Shown here piece by piece: positions 5,890 through 26,647 of a stretch of 26,954 bases of DNA. The notes below the pieces were generated by a model that saw nothing but the letters and a program-made list of their open reading frames with translations, did not search any database and was not told the origin of the DNA. Source of the DNA: a virus. Location: positions 1-26,954 of IMG/VR virus record IMGVR_UViG_3300021960_000417, one strand, 5' to 3'. The translations under genes and the position numbers were made by a program. The stretch's first letter is position 1. Each line of letters begins with the position of its first letter.

Positions 5890-6037
5890 CAAAAGAACCT
5901 CGCTTTTTAGGCGAGGTCATGTGCCGCTTTTTAAAGTGGCTCAGTCGTGCTTTTGCTTGTCGGAGTGCTTGCGGTTTCAGTTTCCGCTTCTGCTCCTTCT
6001 TAGAGTGGTGTTGCCAGTTCGGGGTAGAGTTGCTCAA
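5885..6037 (-). CDS. Possible 50-aa highly basic peptide (TTG start)
   Basis: A 50-codon frame opens at TTG 6037 behind AGGAGG with 4-nt spacing. It overlaps the 3' end of the sulfotransferase gene in another frame and stops at TAA 5887-5885, inside the TATAAT element. The product would be strongly basic: it starts MSNSTPNWQHH, then has Lys/Arg/Gln clusters and ends KKRGSFV. Against it are the non-ATG start, the two hairpins inside it (one a likely terminator) and the absence of a recognised family. I list it because the SD is strong and the reading frame fills an otherwise unexplained 137-nt gap. Confidence 0.25.
   Translation of the reverse strand: MSNSTPNWQHHSKKEQKRKLKPQALRQAKARLSHFKKRHMTSPKKRGSFV
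5891..5917 (-). terminator. Intrinsic terminator after the gp55-to-sulfotransferase cluster
   Basis: On the minus strand ACCTCGC pairs with GCGAGGT (7 bp) around loop CTAAAAA and is followed by TCTTTTG. The position, after the sulfotransferase stop and before the next gene, suits a terminator. The T tract is interrupted by one C. A second imperfect hairpin (5923-5940) lies just before it in the transcript. Confidence 0.65.
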
Positions 6038-6629
6038 AGTCCCTCCTGTAGAAGTTCCTTACATTATCTATGATTTTAGCAGACCTGACAACCTTATTAG
6101 TCTCATCAACGACCAGTTTAGCAGGTGTCACATCAAGAATCTCAAATGGCAAATCTATGATATGGGAAACCCAGTCAGCGAAGTCTTTTCCAAATCCATT
6201 CTCAAATTTCCATACATGTGTCTTGTCTGAGACAAAATCAACTTGTTGCCTGAACCAATTAACTGCTTCAGGGAAAGGAAAATTGTGAATCATGCTATTG
6301 AAAAGGTATTCATCTTCAAGCATTTCATCAATATCATCACCGTACATTTTTCTCATCCACATAGATCCAGAGAAAAACCTATCAATTGGATTTCTAACAA
6401 TGGATATATGTGGAATATCTTTTACATCCAAATACTTCTCATAGTATTCTCTGTGAAAGTGTGCAAGTTCTATTCCATGCACAAGAAAGTATGGTTTGTC
6501 CGTCCCTAAATGATCGTCCCAAACAAAGTTTTGTTCTTTCAGGTTTGCTTCAAAGAACCTACCTGCTGTTCTTGGAATATGGACAAATAAAAATCTTTTA
6601 CCAGTCGGAAGATGTTTGTATGTTGCCAT
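6000..6629 (-). CDS. Sulfotransferase family protein
   Basis: Sulfotransferases move a sulfuryl group from PAPS to a hydroxyl or amine acceptor. The N-terminus has the PAPS 5'-phosphosulfate loop FLFVHIPRTAG (residues 13-23), and SIVRNPIDRFFS (about 76-87) matches the 3'-phosphate-binding motif with its Arg and Ser. At 209 aa it is a compact single domain of the heparan-sulfate 2-O-type superfamily, with no membrane anchor, so it would be cytoplasmic. ATG 6629 overlaps the gene 46 stop as TGATG; a TTG one codon earlier is less likely. The acceptor is unknown. Phage glycan, host polysaccharide or a small molecule are all possible. Its translational coupling to a recombination nuclease subunit is unexpected. 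Confidence 0.88.
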   Translation of the reverse strand: MATYKHLPTGKRFLFVHIPRTAGRFFEANLKEQNFVWDDHLGTDKPYFLVHGIELAHFHREYYEKYLDVKDIPHISIVRNPIDRFFSGSMWMRKMYGDDIDEMLEDEYLFNSMIHNFPFPEAVNWFRQQVDFVSDKTHVWKFENGFGKDFADWVSHIIDLPFEILDVTPAKLVVDETNKVVRSAKIIDNVRNFYRRDFEQLYPELATPL

Positions 6630-8338
6630 CAAACAATCTTACTAAATCCTTTGACCTTATCAAATCTGATAACGTTTTCAAACTTGTCATGAAGGTCTGT
6701 CTTGTGAGAGATCACAAAGATATTAGCGTCTTTGATGACGTAACGGATAATCTTAAGGAACTCATCGGTGCCGAAGCCATCAAGGGAAGAGTCAAATACC
6801 TCATCCATAATCAGCAGGTTTGTATTGGCAGAGTTTTTGACACGCGCTACTTCACGCCAGGTGAAGAGTAGGGCAAGGTCGATTCTCATTTTCTCACCCT
6901 CACTGAAGGAACTATAAGAAAAGTCTTCGTGAATGGGTGATTTTACCGTTTCGTTAAATTCTTCATCCAAATGGAAATTAATGTAAAAGTCCATCATCTG
7001 TAGGTAACGATTGACCTGCTGATTTATGAACGGAAGATACTTCTTAATGATCTTCGTTTTTACACCATCATCCTTAAGTAAGGAGTAGGCAAAATCGTGA
7101 TAAACGATTTCTTGTTTTTTGTCGGAGAGGTCTTCTATTGTCTTTTGGAGATTGGTTCTAAATTCCTCTAACTTCTCATGTTCAGAATTTCGGTTTGCAA
7201 GGTTCTCGGCAATTGTTTGAATTTCATGCTCAAGATCTCTGATTTGTCTCTGGTTGAGGCTAATCCGAGTATTGTTTTGAGAAATGCCATGTGTTAGTTT
7301 TGTAATCTCCTTTGAAAGTGCATTGAATTGACGCTCTCTCTCCTGTTCGAACTTTATTGTTGATTCAAGTTCTTCATACCCATCTTTAAGTTCCTTTGCC
7401 TTATTTTGAGCGTCGCTAATTCTATTTAACCTAAACTCCTCTTCAATGGTCTGAGTGCAGGTAGGGCATACCGTATTTTCGTTGAAAAACTTATGCTCCT
7501 TGGTAATAGCAGATACTTTCTGAGAGATTTTACCTTTGAGATTGTTAAGCTTTACTAACTTATCACCAGCACCAATAAGCATCTCTTGCTCTTTTGTGAG
7601 TGAATGAATTTGCTCTTCAGTAGTATCATTTTCTCCCATATAAACACCAACTTCTTTATCTAAATTGGCAATCTTTTCTTTATTGGTATTGATATTGGCA
7701 TTTCCACGATTCTCCAGTTCTTCAATGAAGTTCTGCTGCATCTTCATCTTATCCTTAAGAGTCTCTTTTTTCAAATCAAGGGACTTAATCTGAGACTTCT
7801 TCTCTTTAATAGCATCTTTGAGAATGTTATTCATCGCAGAAAAGATGCGAATGTCCAATAAGTCTTCAATAACTTCTCTACGGTTTGCAGAAGTCAATTG
7901 CATAAAAGGCACGAAGGTGCTGCTACCCAGAATAACAATCTGAGTAAAAGACTTATAGTTAAGTTTTAAAATACTTTCTTCCAGAATACGCTGCATTGCA
8001 CGATCATCTGCTTCACGGTGCAATGGAGTACCATTCACAACAATATCAAACACTGATGGTTTGATACCACGACGAACTGTATACTGACGATTATTAATTG
8101 TAAACTCAATCTCAACTAAACACTCACGTTCGTTTGCAGTGTTGATTAGTTGTGGTTTGTTAATCCTCCGAAATGGTTTGTTAAAAAGAACAAACGTTAG
8201 AGCATCAAGAATGGTGGATTTACCGGCACCATTAGTTCCAACAATAAGATTTGTATGATGTTCCTGAAAATTAACTTCAGTGAACTGGTTGCCAGTAGAA
8301 AGAAAATTTTTCCACTTAATTTTTTGAAATGTTATCAT
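6629..8338 (-). CDS. 46: Recombination endonuclease subunit gp46 (Rad50/SbcC-like)
   Basis: This is the ATPase subunit of the gp46/gp47 complex, which resects DNA ends for recombination-dependent replication and for host DNA breakdown. Visible features are Walker A GTNGAGKST (residues 34-42), long coiled-coil arms (about 170-285 and 305-405), a zinc-hook CPTC (291-294) at their apex, the ABC signature FSEGEK (478-483) and Walker B LLIMDE (508-513). The 569-aa length matches T4 gp46 (560 aa). It overlaps the DUF3110 gene by 23 nt at its start and the sulfotransferase gene by 1 nt at its end, within the 55-47-DUF3110-46 operon. Confidence 0.97.
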   Translation of the reverse strand: MITFQKIKWKNFLSTGNQFTEVNFQEHHTNLIVGTNGAGKSTILDALTFVLFNKPFRRINKPQLINTANERECLVEIEFTINNRQYTVRRGIKPSVFDIVVNGTPLHREADDRAMQRILEESILKLNYKSFTQIVILGSSTFVPFMQLTSANRREVIEDLLDIRIFSAMNNILKDAIKEKKSQIKSLDLKKETLKDKMKMQQNFIEELENRGNANINTNKEKIANLDKEVGVYMGENDTTEEQIHSLTKEQEMLIGAGDKLVKLNNLKGKISQKVSAITKEHKFFNENTVCPTCTQTIEEEFRLNRISDAQNKAKELKDGYEELESTIKFEQERERQFNALSKEITKLTHGISQNNTRISLNQRQIRDLEHEIQTIAENLANRNSEHEKLEEFRTNLQKTIEDLSDKKQEIVYHDFAYSLLKDDGVKTKIIKKYLPFINQQVNRYLQMMDFYINFHLDEEFNETVKSPIHEDFSYSSFSEGEKMRIDLALLFTWREVARVKNSANTNLLIMDEVFDSSLDGFGTDEFLKIIRYVIKDANIFVISHKTDLHDKFENVIRFDKVKGFSKIV

Positions 8339-12181: not shown

Positions 12182-13504
12182 TCAAGACATATGTTGGGAG
12201 ATTTGATCTGCCGTTTGCTGTCTCACCTGAGAGTTTTTAAGTGCAGTTTGCTGATGCCTACGTGGTAAGTTTGCAATCCTTTCCCTTTCACTTGCTGCCG
12301 CTCTCTGGCGGGCGATTTCTTCAGGACTTGGTTGTTGTGCTGCTTGCTGCTGAGCAGCTGCTTGTTGTGCTGCCTGTTGCTGCGCCATCGCTTGTTGTTG
12401 TGCGGCTGCCTGTTGTTGTGCTGCGGCTTGTCTGTCAGCAATACTTTGTCTCAGTTGAGCAATTTTTGCTTGACGTGGAGTTTGTGGAGTTTGATCTGGT
12501 CCTTGTTGTGGTTGTTGTGGGGCAGGTCTATAATCAACTTTTACGTTACCGGGTCTTGCTTCACCTTTTGGTAAAGCTTGTCTTGGTCTTGCACTAACCT
12601 GTTGTTCTGCTGATTTTGCTGTAGCGGCAGTTTTATCAGTTCTTCCAGTCAAAACCATACCAGCAGTTCCTGGTGCATTAGATCCACCAAATTTTTGTGC
12701 TCCAGTAGTTGATACTTGTGATACATGACGAGTTAAATTTGGATGTTCATCATGGAGACCGTCAAGAATGTCTTGTGCGGCAACTTTTAATGATTGTTTT
12801 TCATCACGTCCAGCACCTTTCATGTCTGTATTTGCATTAGCAACTCTTTCAATTCTATTCATAATATCTTGACGAATTCTATTTCTTTCTTCTTTTGATT
12901 TATCACCATGAAATCTTTGAACGAAAGATTTTGATGCTGCCTTGTAAGTTGCTAAAAGTTCTCCCGCTTCTGCAGAAGCAAGTTGAGCACCACCACCTTT
13001 TTTCATACTAATTCCCCTTCTCTCTTTGGGGTTATCTGGATTATAAATTTCCAAGTCTCCTTTTGGAGTTACATTTTTACCACCAGCACCTTTCCAAGTT
13101 CTTGAAAGTTTTGCATTTGGATCTGATCCACCAGTAACTCTTGCGGGATGCATTTTCTCAACAGCACCTCTTAATTTTTTCTGAGATGCTAATTTGTGAA
13201 CTCCGTATATTGCATCATCCAGTTCTCTATTATAATCATCCTCATCACTTGCACGTTTTCCATGTTTTGCTGAAAAACCTTTATTAGATTTATCAAAGTG
13301 CAGGGGGTGTTCTGGATCAGTTTTTGAGTACTGAACCTCTGTATTCATTATCTCTAACGCCCTATCATAATTTTTATCTAAAAGAGCATCTCTTACTTCT
13401 TTCCCATGTTCTGGATGGGAGATAAAATAATTCCACAGTTTTCTGTGTGCGTGCTCTTCGCTATATTTTTCGCAAATAATTTTAAATTCTATAAACGTCT
13501 TCAT
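12182..13504 (-). CDS. 440-aa protein: head-targeting-like N-terminus, nuclease-like motif, Ala/Gln-rich tail
   Basis: Three regions are visible. (a) The N-terminus MKTFIEFKIICE resembles the capsid-targeting sequence of T4 internal head proteins (MKTYQEFIAE), with ICE as a possible (L/I)-x-E prohead-protease site. (b) Residues 143-190 contain KGDLEIYNPDN, then RGISMKKGGGAQLASAEAGE. The D150...S166-x-K168 pattern followed by GGAQL resembles a PD-(D/E)xK nuclease core with Ser in place of the usual Asp/Glu. (c) Residues about 325-405 are Pro/Gln- then Ala/Gln-rich, likely disordered or coiled. The protein is basic overall, with no signal peptide or membrane span. A CTAAATA motif precedes it. 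Function is inferred only: a candidate packaged, perhaps DNA-binding, protein. It could also be structural. Confidence 0.7.
   Translation of the reverse strand: MKTFIEFKIICEKYSEEHAHRKLWNYFISHPEHGKEVRDALLDKNYDRALEIMNTEVQYSKTDPEHPLHFDKSNKGFSAKHGKRASDEDDYNRELDDAIYGVHKLASQKKLRGAVEKMHPARVTGGSDPNAKLSRTWKGAGGKNVTPKGDLEIYNPDNPKERRGISMKKGGGAQLASAEAGELLATYKAASKSFVQRFHGDKSKEERNRIRQDIMNRIERVANANTDMKGAGRDEKQSLKVAAQDILDGLHDEHPNLTRHVSQVSTTGAQKFGGSNAPGTAGMVLTGRTDKTAATAKSAEQQVSARPRQALPKGEARPGNVKVDYRPAPQQPQQGPDQTPQTPRQAKIAQLRQSIADRQAAAQQQAAAQQQAMAQQQAAQQAAAQQQAAQQPSPEEIARQRAAASERERIANLPRRHQQTALKNSQVRQQTADQISQHMS
12320..12440. repeat. Ala/Gln codon-repeat tract
   Basis: Low-complexity DNA made of repeated GCTGC, TTGTTG and TGTGCTG units encodes alternating (A)n(Q)n blocks on the minus strand, about residues 355-395 of the 440-aa protein. 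Copies are imperfect and in frame. This also creates long spurious frames on the plus strand. Confidence 0.85.
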
Positions 13505-17298: not shown

Positions 17299-17949
17299 TT
17301 AAAGATTTGACAGAAAATCATTGAAAAGATTGAGCTTATGCTCCTCAAGTCTTCTCTGATCAACTAAGGTATTTATTCTTCTTTTAGTTTGTTCTGCGAG
17401 TTTTTCACGAAGGATTCCACCTTCCCAAACCCACTCTTTTCCTTCCATGATTCCATTGACAAAAGCGTCAGGAGCGGAAGGATCGGCAACGATATCAGCA
17501 GCAGTTGCTAACTGGAAATCTTCACCGACAATTTTATGACCTTCATTGGTCATACGGAGTGAACCAACACCACGAGAGGAAACGCCGAGACAAACGCCTT
17601 CATCAAGAAGAGAAGATGCAATCTTACCCATGGGGGTAGAAAGAATCTGTGCCTTACCTTTGAAATTATTTCCCTCTTGAACGAGAGAAGTGATTTTGTG
17701 AGAGACACGATCAAGGTTGACGGTAGGACCATCGGGGTGACCGAGTTCTCCAAGAGCACGACCCTTAGCAACAAAATTTTCGCAGTAACGTCCTACTTCA
17801 CGGGAAAGAGTGTCAATGGGATACATTCTCCCATTGCGGTTCTTGATTTCACCCTGAAGAAATACACCTTCGATGTACAACTTCTTATTGGCACCTTTGC
17901 CTTCGGTGATAATCTTTACGTTTGTTACTTCTTCTGTGATAAGTTTCAT
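17299..17949 (-). CDS. 21: Prohead core protease gp21
   Basis: gp21 is the serine protease that matures the prohead by cutting gp22, gp23 and internal proteins at (L/I)-x-E sites. The 216-aa length matches T4 gp21 (212 aa). Catalytic elements are visible: His71 in GELGHPDG (67-74) and the serine in LGVSSRG (Ser124 or Ser125). The sequence NRNGRMYP (about 38-44), typical of the family, is also present. The start ATG 17949 is 4 nt after the 89-aa gene stop, without an obvious Shine-Dalgarno, suggesting reinitiation from the upstream gene. Confidence 0.96.
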   Translation of the reverse strand: MKLITEEVTNVKIITEGKGANKKLYIEGVFLQGEIKNRNGRMYPIDTLSREVGRYCENFVAKGRALGELGHPDGPTVNLDRVSHKITSLVQEGNNFKGKAQILSTPMGKIASSLLDEGVCLGVSSRGVGSLRMTNEGHKIVGEDFQLATAADIVADPSAPDAFVNGIMEGKEWVWEGGILREKLAEQTKRRINTLVDQRRLEEHKLNLFNDFLSNL

Positions 17950-18426: not shown

Positions 18427-20155
18427 TCTCAGCCTTTTTGGTGTCCTTTTGTAGTTGAGCGTCTGTTGCTGCTGCTTGTGCTTCTAAGTCAGGTTCTGCT
18501 GGAATTTCTCCCATACCCATTACATCCTGTCCCATGCCATCCATACCACCACCCATTTCTTCAGGTGGTGCCTCTTGTGGTAACGGTTCTCCAGTTATTG
18601 GATCTTGACCGTTTGGATCTGGAATAATTCCCTTTTCAATCTCATCATCAATTTGTGAATCAATTTCAAGAATTTCAGAATCAGTCTGACGCAGAACTCT
18701 CTTGCGTACATATTCTGTTGAATAGAACTTACCGATATAAGGTTCGATTGTTGCCAAAAGACCTAAACGGTTTTGTGTAAGTTCTGCTTCTTTGAGTTCT
18801 GCAAATTGATTATCATACAAGAAGTCATATTGGATATGATCCTTCATCGTTTCCCAATCTTCAGGACTTACGATGTTCTTGAGAATCAATTGCGTTCTCA
18901 ACATGTCATTGAACATCTGAGCAAAACGCTTTCTCAAACGACCAACAAACTTAGCAAACTTAAGTTCGTCTCTCAGAATCTCAGAAGAACGACCAAGATT
19001 GAAACCACCATCAGCAGCAATTCTTGACTCGGGAACTCCAAGTGCTCTGTAGAGTTTCTTTTGGAAATATTCAATATCAGCAAGTTCGCCTAAGTTTTGT
19101 CCACCAGGAAGTGTGGTGATCTCAGTTCCCCTACCACCTTCACGGCGAGGTAACCAAAAATCTTCCATCATTGACATGAACTTACGATCATCACGAACTT
19201 CGCCCGTGTTTGCATCATATGCCAATTTATTTCTATAGCGAGACATAACCTCTTTGAGGTATTGCTCTGCCTTTACTTTTGGAAGATTGCCAACGTCAAT
19301 ATAGAAAATTCTTCTTTCTGGTGCTCTTGACAAACGATAGATGACCAAGGAATCTTCAATCATTCTCAGTTGATTGAGTGCCTTGATCGCCTTGTGCATG
19401 TAAGATAGAACAGTGCCTTTATTTCTATCTACAAGACCTGAACTGCAATAAGTAACAGAATCTTTTGCAATCTTTACGCCTTCGGACTTTTTACCACCAG
19501 CACCAGAGAACATTCCACTTGGATAGTTTGGTTTTGGTGTGTATAAGAAATACTCCTCTATTTCTGGTTCGATTATTTTTTCGTTACCACCACCAGTTGG
19601 ACCAAGACCACCAGTTCTGATTGCTAAACCTCTTGCATCAGTTTTCTTTTCTTGACGAATATATCTCATCCTCATTGGATCAATATATCTCAGATCCTGA
19701 ATACCTGCCTGAGGATTTTTTACATCGATAACTTTGAGGTAAAATACTCTTCCGTCAACATACCAGTTTCTAAAAATTTCATGGCACTTTCTATCGAAGT
19801 CCATGATTTCTTTGAGATATTTAAATTCTTCTCTAATTGTTTTTTTCAGTTTGTCGCTAGCGTTGAGATTTGATAATTCGATCTCTACTGGAGAATCATA
19901 CAAATCGCTAACAATTGCTTCATTTACAACATCTTCAATCGCACCATCACATTCTGGGTGAAGTGCCATTTCACGATATCTTTTAATTAAATCATGTTCT
20001 GTGCGATAAACACCTTCGATGTCAAGATAATGACCATAAAAACCACTTGCAATATAATTATCAACCCCGTCCTCATTGGTTTGAGGAACGGGGGAAATAA
20101 CTGAAGGTGGCTTTCTTTGGCTATCGTCAATTGAAAAACCAAAAAGTCTTGCCAT
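18422..20155 (-). CDS. 20: Portal protein gp20
   Basis: gp20 forms the dodecameric portal at the head vertex, nucleates prohead assembly and is the channel for gp17-driven packaging. The 577-aa protein (T4: 524 aa) matches cyanophage gp20: MARLFGFSIDD start, RYREMALHPECDGAIEDVVN (about residues 60-79), the RYIDPMRMRYIR strand region (about 178-189), LSRAPERRIFYIDVGNLPK (about 284-302) and GTEITTLPGGQNLGELADIE (about 363-382). The C-terminal 70 residues are Pro/Gly/Met/Gln-rich and probably disordered. CTAAATA lies 29 nt upstream of ATG 20155. Confidence 0.97.
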   Translation of the reverse strand: MARLFGFSIDDSQRKPPSVISPVPQTNEDGVDNYIASGFYGHYLDIEGVYRTEHDLIKRYREMALHPECDGAIEDVVNEAIVSDLYDSPVEIELSNLNASDKLKKTIREEFKYLKEIMDFDRKCHEIFRNWYVDGRVFYLKVIDVKNPQAGIQDLRYIDPMRMRYIRQEKKTDARGLAIRTGGLGPTGGGNEKIIEPEIEEYFLYTPKPNYPSGMFSGAGGKKSEGVKIAKDSVTYCSSGLVDRNKGTVLSYMHKAIKALNQLRMIEDSLVIYRLSRAPERRIFYIDVGNLPKVKAEQYLKEVMSRYRNKLAYDANTGEVRDDRKFMSMMEDFWLPRREGGRGTEITTLPGGQNLGELADIEYFQKKLYRALGVPESRIAADGGFNLGRSSEILRDELKFAKFVGRLRKRFAQMFNDMLRTQLILKNIVSPEDWETMKDHIQYDFLYDNQFAELKEAELTQNRLGLLATIEPYIGKFYSTEYVRKRVLRQTDSEILEIDSQIDDEIEKGIIPDPNGQDPITGEPLPQEAPPEEMGGGMDGMGQDVMGMGEIPAEPDLEAQAAATDAQLQKDTKKAEI

Positions 20156-26320: not shown

Positions 26321-26647
26321 TTAATCAGTCCAAGTTAATCTTTCTGGTTGATATCTTTTTACCCCTGTTATTCTAAGAGTACTATTTGATGATACATTCG
26401 CTGGATAAATGTTATGAACAACTGCTCCAGGATATTCTCCTTGTATTTGTTCCCCAAGGTGTTCTCTAGTTGGTAAATCTTTACAATTTATGTCCATACG
26501 ATAAAGACTACCTTGCCACATTACGTCTGCAACATAACTTTCACCAAAGTTTTGTGAGTTTGGTTGTGATCCACTCACATTTAAAGTTCCATTGAAATCA
26601 CCATTGATAGTAATACTCTCGGATAAAAATTTTTTAAAATCTTTCAT
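26321..26647 (-). CDS. 108-aa protein with head-targeting-like N-terminus
   Basis: The product begins MKDFKKFLSESITINGDFNG. MKDFKKFLSE matches the layout of T4 internal-protein targeting sequences (MKTYQEFIAE), and LSE|S is a good (L/I)-x-E cleavage site for gp21. The remainder is a beta-rich 98-residue domain with WQGSLYRMDINCKDLPTREH and a charged middle, unlike gp16. ATG 26647 overlaps the upstream stop as TAATG and has GGAGGT at 7 nt; the in-frame TTG at 26662 lies upstream of that ribosome site and is rejected. I do not recognise the mature domain. A packaged internal head protein is the inference from the N-terminus. Confidence 0.72.
   Translation of the reverse strand: MKDFKKFLSESITINGDFNGTLNVSGSQPNSQNFGESYVADVMWQGSLYRMDINCKDLPTREHLGEQIQGEYPGAVVHNIYPANVSSNSTLRITGVKRYQPERLTWTD

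Follow-up and report, generated by a model that had tools for sequence, protein, structure and literature searches.

Introduction

In phage T4, a short N-terminal tag recruits the internal proteins into the prohead core, the gp21 protease trims it, and the protein is injected into the host with the DNA (PMC3012670, PMC9026906). Truncation and suppressor experiments on IPIII assigned targeting to residues 4 and 7 of the tag, and processing to residues 8 and 10 (PMC9026906). Foreign proteins can also be packed by this route, staphylococcal nuclease and EcoRI among them (PMC3012670, PMC9026906).

Restriction enzymes are the other described systems to which the present locus can be compared. A migrated-carboxylate form of their active-site motif is known (PMC551604, PMC6344858); such sites are active in Cfr10I/NgoMIV-type enzymes, E201 being the migrated Glu of NgoMIV, and Gln is tolerated in place of Glu in Kpn2I (PMC6344858). 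The site of MspI contains an Asn (review PMC4081073), so that the textbook motif does not strictly apply to the MspI group either.

Here we describe a marine phage gene whose product shares with T4 IPI, IPII and IPIII the aromatic residues at positions 4 and 7, a hydrophobic-x-Glu cleavage site, an accompanying gp21 protease, and a conserved tag borne by varying cargo. It differs in that the cargo, in a protein of 440 aa, has a predicted restriction-enzyme-like fold, whereas the T4 ipII and ipIII genes encode about 100 and 193 aa. The gene also lies between uvsY and uvsW, and the T4 internal proteins of known role are GmrSD inhibitors. While the T4 proteins are packaged and injected, packaging of this one is proposed from its sequence.

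Gene and genomic setting

The window, i.e. the whole stretch of 26,954 nucleotides that was analysed, is part of the genome of a T4-like marine phage. Its minus strand encodes homologues of gp17, gp18, gp19, gp20, gp21, gp22, gp23, a gp3-like protein, uvsY, uvsW, gp55, gp47 and gp46, several of these names being based on similarity and gene order and only some on a profile match. Of cultured phages, Synechococcus phage S-SKS1 matches the DNA best, with 75% identity over 74% of the searched stretch. Next to gp46, at 6000-6632 on the minus strand, is a sulfotransferase-like gene (PHROG 3347, E 3e-23).

The initial annotation had reported a 440-aa gene at 12182-13504 without giving its strand. 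The gene is real and runs on the minus strand from an ATG start, and it is supported by a 99% identical relative on another contig (locus L003). Translation of the window gives a pI of 9.70, the highest among the 26 window proteins; the T4 internal proteins likewise carry basic cargo. A 118-aa ORF on the plus strand (12241-12597) was rejected because it reads the Gln-rich tail in antisense. The features discussed below are as follows.

12182..13504, minus strand: gene for the 440-aa tagged, restriction-endonuclease-like protein (ORF, translation, relatives)
13469..13504, minus strand: capsid-targeting-like tag, residues 1-12 MKTFIEFKIICE, with a predicted gp21 cut after E12 (pattern match, conservation in relatives, T4 residue roles from PMC9026906)
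13319..13468, minus strand: residues 13-62, the helical N-terminal part, which contains KYSEEHA; in branch A, E17 is invariant
13295..13309, minus strand: HPLHF motif, residues 66-70; H66, P67, L68 and F70 invariant in branch A
12917..13252, minus strand: nuclease-like core, residues 85-196 (hhalign homology to the modelled branch-B domain, and the fold of that domain)
13055..13069, minus strand: T-P-K-G-D motif, residues 146-150; D150 invariant (alignment)
13001..13009, minus strand: S166-M-K168, (D/E)xK-like with Ser replacing the acid; S166 and K168 invariant (alignment)
12959..12961, minus strand: E182, candidate migrated carboxylate, K-x13-E (E/Q at x12-13 in 44/45 relatives; motif type from PMC551604, PMC6344858)
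12185..12526, minus strand: residues 327-440, a Gln/Ala/Pro-rich tail of low complexity, whose length and sequence vary
17299..17949, minus strand: prohead protease of the gp21 type, which would be expected to cleave the tag (Peptidase_S77, E 1.4e-36)
26321..26647, minus strand: second tagged gene, MKDFKKFLSES..., PHROG 1742 (function unknown)

The 440-aa protein matched no family in Pfam or PHROGs, and sequence searches of the PDB gave no usable match. Among 50,697 phage records, a direct relative was found in cyanophage P-RSM6 only (29% identity), and IMG/VR yielded 35 and then 55 relatives, which we call branch A. Through one branch-A member we reached a larger group, branch B, with at least 348 IMG/VR loci and including proteins of Methylophilales phage Melnitz and Pelagibacter phage HTVC008M. 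A further branch-B-type member, from Microcystis phage Mel-JY01, retrieved no additional relatives when used as query, and the broad family found none in the prokaryote genome collection searched. The two branches align by hhalign (prob 98.2, E 5.6e-14) along 172 columns, the catalytic-type residues among them.

The gene sits between uvsY and uvsW. Its start lies 23 bases past the uvsY stop, which makes co-transcription with uvsY likely, and the T4 late-promoter motif TATAAATA is absent before it. The same spot holds a 60-aa ORF in S-SKS1 and three short ORFs in P-SSM2, and is therefore variable between phages. In branch A, conservation of the order gp20-gp21-gp22-gp23-gp3-uvsY-[gene]-uvsW-gp55-gp47-gp46 extends to members of only about 30% identity to the window protein, and two members have the gene between gp23 and gp3 instead; this synteny led us to reject a purely random insertion. 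In P-RSM6, Melnitz, HTVC008M and several contigs, the gene has DUF6267 and cytidylyltransferase genes as neighbours, some of them tagged (for the three phages, such neighbourhoods span L002 457-2733, L231 4863-8204 and L244 5025-9026). The genes of Melnitz and HTVC008M also stand beside RecA/UvsX and a primase-helicase.

The N-terminal tag and its predicted cleavage site

Residues 1-12 (MKTFIEFKIICE) had been likened to the T4 targeting sequence MKTYQEFIAE, with a possible prohead-protease site of the I-x-E type. Both points hold: F4 and F7 are present, as is I10-C11-E12. Because the relatives were fetched with internal peptides (KYS[ED]EHA, RKxWNY, HPLHF, PKTD and FxxEAMSG), their N-termini were not selected for a tag, yet the tag is conserved in them. 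Among 45 non-redundant relatives, an aromatic residue occupies position 4 in 40 and position 7 in 43, against a background of 0.3% for the pair, and [ILVF]xE occurs within residues 8-24 in all 45, against a background of 9%; both backgrounds were computed inside the same 45 proteins. A few relatives from the same locus have no plain tag (L193, L207 and L215).

The window site lies two residues later than the I8-A9-E10 of T4. This shift is explained by close relatives, in which MKTFRSFITE is directly followed by KYSEEH, and MKTFQEFLIICE by KYSDEH, just as MKTFIEFKIICE is followed by KYSEEH in the window protein. Across the family, the linker from the tag to KYS[ED]EHA ranges from 0 residues, as in the first of these relatives, to about 20 (MKSFGDFIFECYFNKFSLFLFEGKYSDEH), and such variability fits the expectation for a module.

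At the DNA level, the pattern M-K-x-(F/Y)-x-x-F has two matches in the window where dinucleotide shuffles predict 0.30, and both are gene starts, that of the 440-aa gene and that of the gene starting at 26647 on the minus strand. None of 1380 internal Met sites matched the tag. The second tagged gene has orthologues in S-SKS1 and on other contigs that keep the tag (MKNFKQFLSE, MKSFKQFISE).

Nuclease-like residues and fold

D150 and S166-M167-K168-K169, which the initial annotation had compared to a PD-(D/E)xK active site, are present. An alignment of 39 sequences from both branches has seven invariant columns (G125, D150, S166, K168, Q174, S177 and G268 in window numbering), among them the three residues D150, S166 and K168 whose conservation was in question. 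The chance that three named residues are all invariant is about 6e-6 at random, but these three had been picked because they looked motif-like. The acid position of the canonical (D/E)xK is Ser in all members. E182 is near-invariant: 44 of 45 relatives have K-x12/13-[E/Q], and one branch has Gln at this place.

The resulting order D...xxK...E, with E possibly Q, is shared with the CCGG-family enzymes Cfr10I, NgoMIV, PspGI and EcoRII. The spacing from K168 to E182 (x13) equals that from K187 to E201 of NgoMIV.

Structure prediction supports the nuclease call through a homologue. An AlphaFold model of window residues 1-300 (pLDDT 69, pTM 0.60), compared with solved structures by Foldseek and VIA, gave no fold match, only helical bundles on residues 169-263. 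The model of the branch-B protein L302, built with 39 sequences of both branches, was better (pLDDT 83.9, pTM 0.76). With Foldseek it retrieved MspI first (E 1.5e-3, prob 0.99) and HinP1I second (E 0.018, 0.92); no other listed hit reached a prob of 0.1. VIA-align ranked HinP1I highest (Z 10.7 and 10.2 over 202 and 188 residues), then MspI (9.8 over 202) and HhaI (6.4 over 158); after these came an unrelated chain (Z 3.5) and the Holliday-junction resolvase Hjc (3.2). On the strength of these matches, the branch-B domain, as modelled, has a PD-(D/E)xK fold and is nearest to monomeric type II restriction enzymes.

That the window protein has the same predicted fold is supported by homology (hhalign E 5.6e-14); the assignment rests on the homologue, since the protein's own model matched no solved structure. 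The homologous domain has in common with HinP1I and MspI the overall fold (Z about 10, about 200 residues), with the D and the xK motif on adjacent strands, whereas the window family differs from them in its capsid tag and in the Ser at the acid position. Profile searches of the PDB found no sequence likeness to MspI or HinP1I. Fold and motif order indicate different restriction-enzyme groups, the fold search having pointed to MspI/HinP1I instead of the CCGG family.

Proposed function and alternatives

The gene, its conserved tag with the cleavage-site pattern, the nearby gp21 gene, the invariant catalytic-type residues and the fold of the homologue were all obtained by computation. Their best explanation, which we consider probable, is a T4-type protein that is packaged in the head, cleaved by gp21 and injected, and that carries a PD-(D/E)xK nuclease domain; packaging, cleavage, injection, catalysis and target are what we infer. 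The N-terminal tag would recruit the 440-aa protein into the prohead core, gp21 would cleave behind residue 12, where the I-x-E ends, and the basic protein in its mature form would remain with the DNA and enter the host alongside the genome. Its body would be a nuclease domain of the PD-(D/E)xK superfamily with a D...SxK...E site and a fold nearest to monomeric HinP1I/MspI. The most likely target would be non-phage DNA, either the host chromosome or resident competitors, cut at the start of infection.

A nuclease packed beside the phage's own DNA needs restraint, be it a lack of free metal, DNA modification, or the choice of site; we found no means of such restraint for the packed protein. Four-base palindromes are rare in the window (observed vs expected: GGCC 1 vs 22, CCGG 5 vs 26, AGCT 21 vs 69). 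We rejected this avoidance as a clue to the cut site; phages without the gene also have these tetramers below expectation, so that host restriction is the likelier cause.

Several other readings deserve consideration. A packaged and injected protein might use the fold not as a nuclease but as a DNA-bound inhibitor or decoy against host restriction, in line with T4 Ip1-3, which all inhibit type IV (GmrSD) restriction enzymes (PMC12373910; PMC3012670), and with the replacement of the usual acid by Ser and of E182 by Gln in one branch. We hold this to be unlikely, as a decoy would have no need of the D, SxK and Q that stay invariant across very distant members, and the Cfr10I/NgoMIV-type enzymes are active with migrated carboxylates, Kpn2I even with Gln (PMC6344858). 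The same invariance of catalytic-type residues argues against a head-core or DNA-condensing structural protein that keeps the nuclease fold as a relic and whose basic body and Gln/Ala/Pro-rich tail would aid DNA packing. Such a role would suit the high pI and the low-complexity tail, and T4 internal proteins are embedded in packed DNA (PMC3012670), but the distribution of the gene is patchy, the nearest phage, S-SKS1, having only its 60-aa ORF at the spot, and the gene is accordingly not essential for head assembly; we give this reading little credence.

It is equally improbable, in our estimate, that the protein is a late cytoplasmic recombination or repair nuclease acting with UvsY/UvsW or UvsX, of which the tag packs spare copies only. 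The conserved uvsY-uvsW position and the RecA/UvsX and primase-helicase neighbours in Melnitz and HTVC008M would fit, but this role makes a conserved packaging tag and cut site needless, and the P-RSM6 gene lies elsewhere, grouped with a tagged cytidylyltransferase. The likeness to the T4 tag might finally be a coincidence, considering how short the tag is and that it is displaced by two residues in the window protein. We regard this as very improbable, because positions 4 and 7 and the cut site are conserved across unrelated linkers, the internal Met sites lack the tag (0/1380), and all 90 listed environmental matches to a strict MKTFxxF[IM]xE pattern (see below) fall at ORF starts.

Tag use in other phages

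The strict pattern M-x-x-(F/Y)-x-x-F-(hydrophobic)-x-E gave 15 matches in 12 whole phage genomes, against 2 in the reversed control. In T4 it matches three gene starts, those of ipII, ipIII and the uncharacterised gp61.1. The latter, a hypothetical protein of 54 aa (T4 18966-19130, minus strand; L268 467-631), begins MKTFKEFIKE and, judging by this start, may be an unrecognised internal protein.

In S-SM1, the only strict-pattern match is the start of SSM1_190, a cytidyltransferase of cluster T4-GC190, and the P-SSM2 orthologue (PSSM2_194) is also tagged. These are T4-like marine phages with the same type of tag as the window protein, although the enzyme is unrelated to the nuclease-like one. 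The T4-GC190 protein was detected by mass spectrometry in purified S-SM1 virions (Sullivan and colleagues, PMC3037559). On evidence published independently, a cyanophage particle does contain a protein tagged in this way, which does not imply a causal role of the tag or its cleavage; for the window protein, this serves as an analogy. S-SKS1 has a tagged 111-aa ORF (MKSFFQFLFESAAQQ) in an unannotated gap, from 73234 down on the minus strand (L271 about 2400-2735); its start resembles that of the P-SSM2 cytidylyltransferase, and it is possibly a disrupted gene.

A related pattern gave 12 matches, and none in the reversed control, in six IMG/VR records with the nuclease-like family or other tagged genes. 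We also searched IMG/VR with a strict DNA pattern for MKTFxxF[IM]xE, which returned at least 120 stretches; 80 loci (L063-L142) were analysed. Among the matches listed for these loci, 90 of 90 stand at the start of an ORF that either has 50 aa or more or is truncated at the contig end, and no more than 25 open codons precede 85 of them. Pfam matches among the 86 distinct tagged proteins listed include SAM lyase (9), cytidylyltransferase (5), DUF6267 (3) and zeta toxin (2); ART-PolyVal, HicA toxin, HD_4, lytic transglycosylase and HNH were each matched once. Tagged genes also occur in clusters, four in L134 and three in L138. In the open-licence literature we found the tag described for T-even phages, and no description for cyanophages or for enzymes of these kinds.

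On balance, we favour the view that marine and freshwater T4-like phages use T4-type capsid targeting as a general route of delivery, by which many unrelated tagged proteins would be packaged in the head, undergo trimming by gp21 and be injected as an arsenal of effectors before phage gene expression. The tagged proteins suggest that its cargo comprises restriction-enzyme-like nucleases, SAM lyases, cytidylyltransferases, ADP-ribosyltransferases, zeta- and HicA-type toxins, and HD hydrolases.

Conclusions

Injected proteins of T-even phages are known mainly as restriction inhibitors. If our reading is true, a restriction-enzyme-like cargo on a T4 tag would be the host's kind of weapon turned into a weapon of the phage, and an injected nuclease would account for the presence of a variable gene at the uvsY-uvsW position of marine T4-like phages. 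The tag also offers an explanation for a published puzzle, the presence of the cytidylyltransferase T4-GC190 in cyanophage virions. Because the tag can easily be read from sequence, candidates for injection can be listed, and then tested, in viruses that rank among the most abundant of the ocean.
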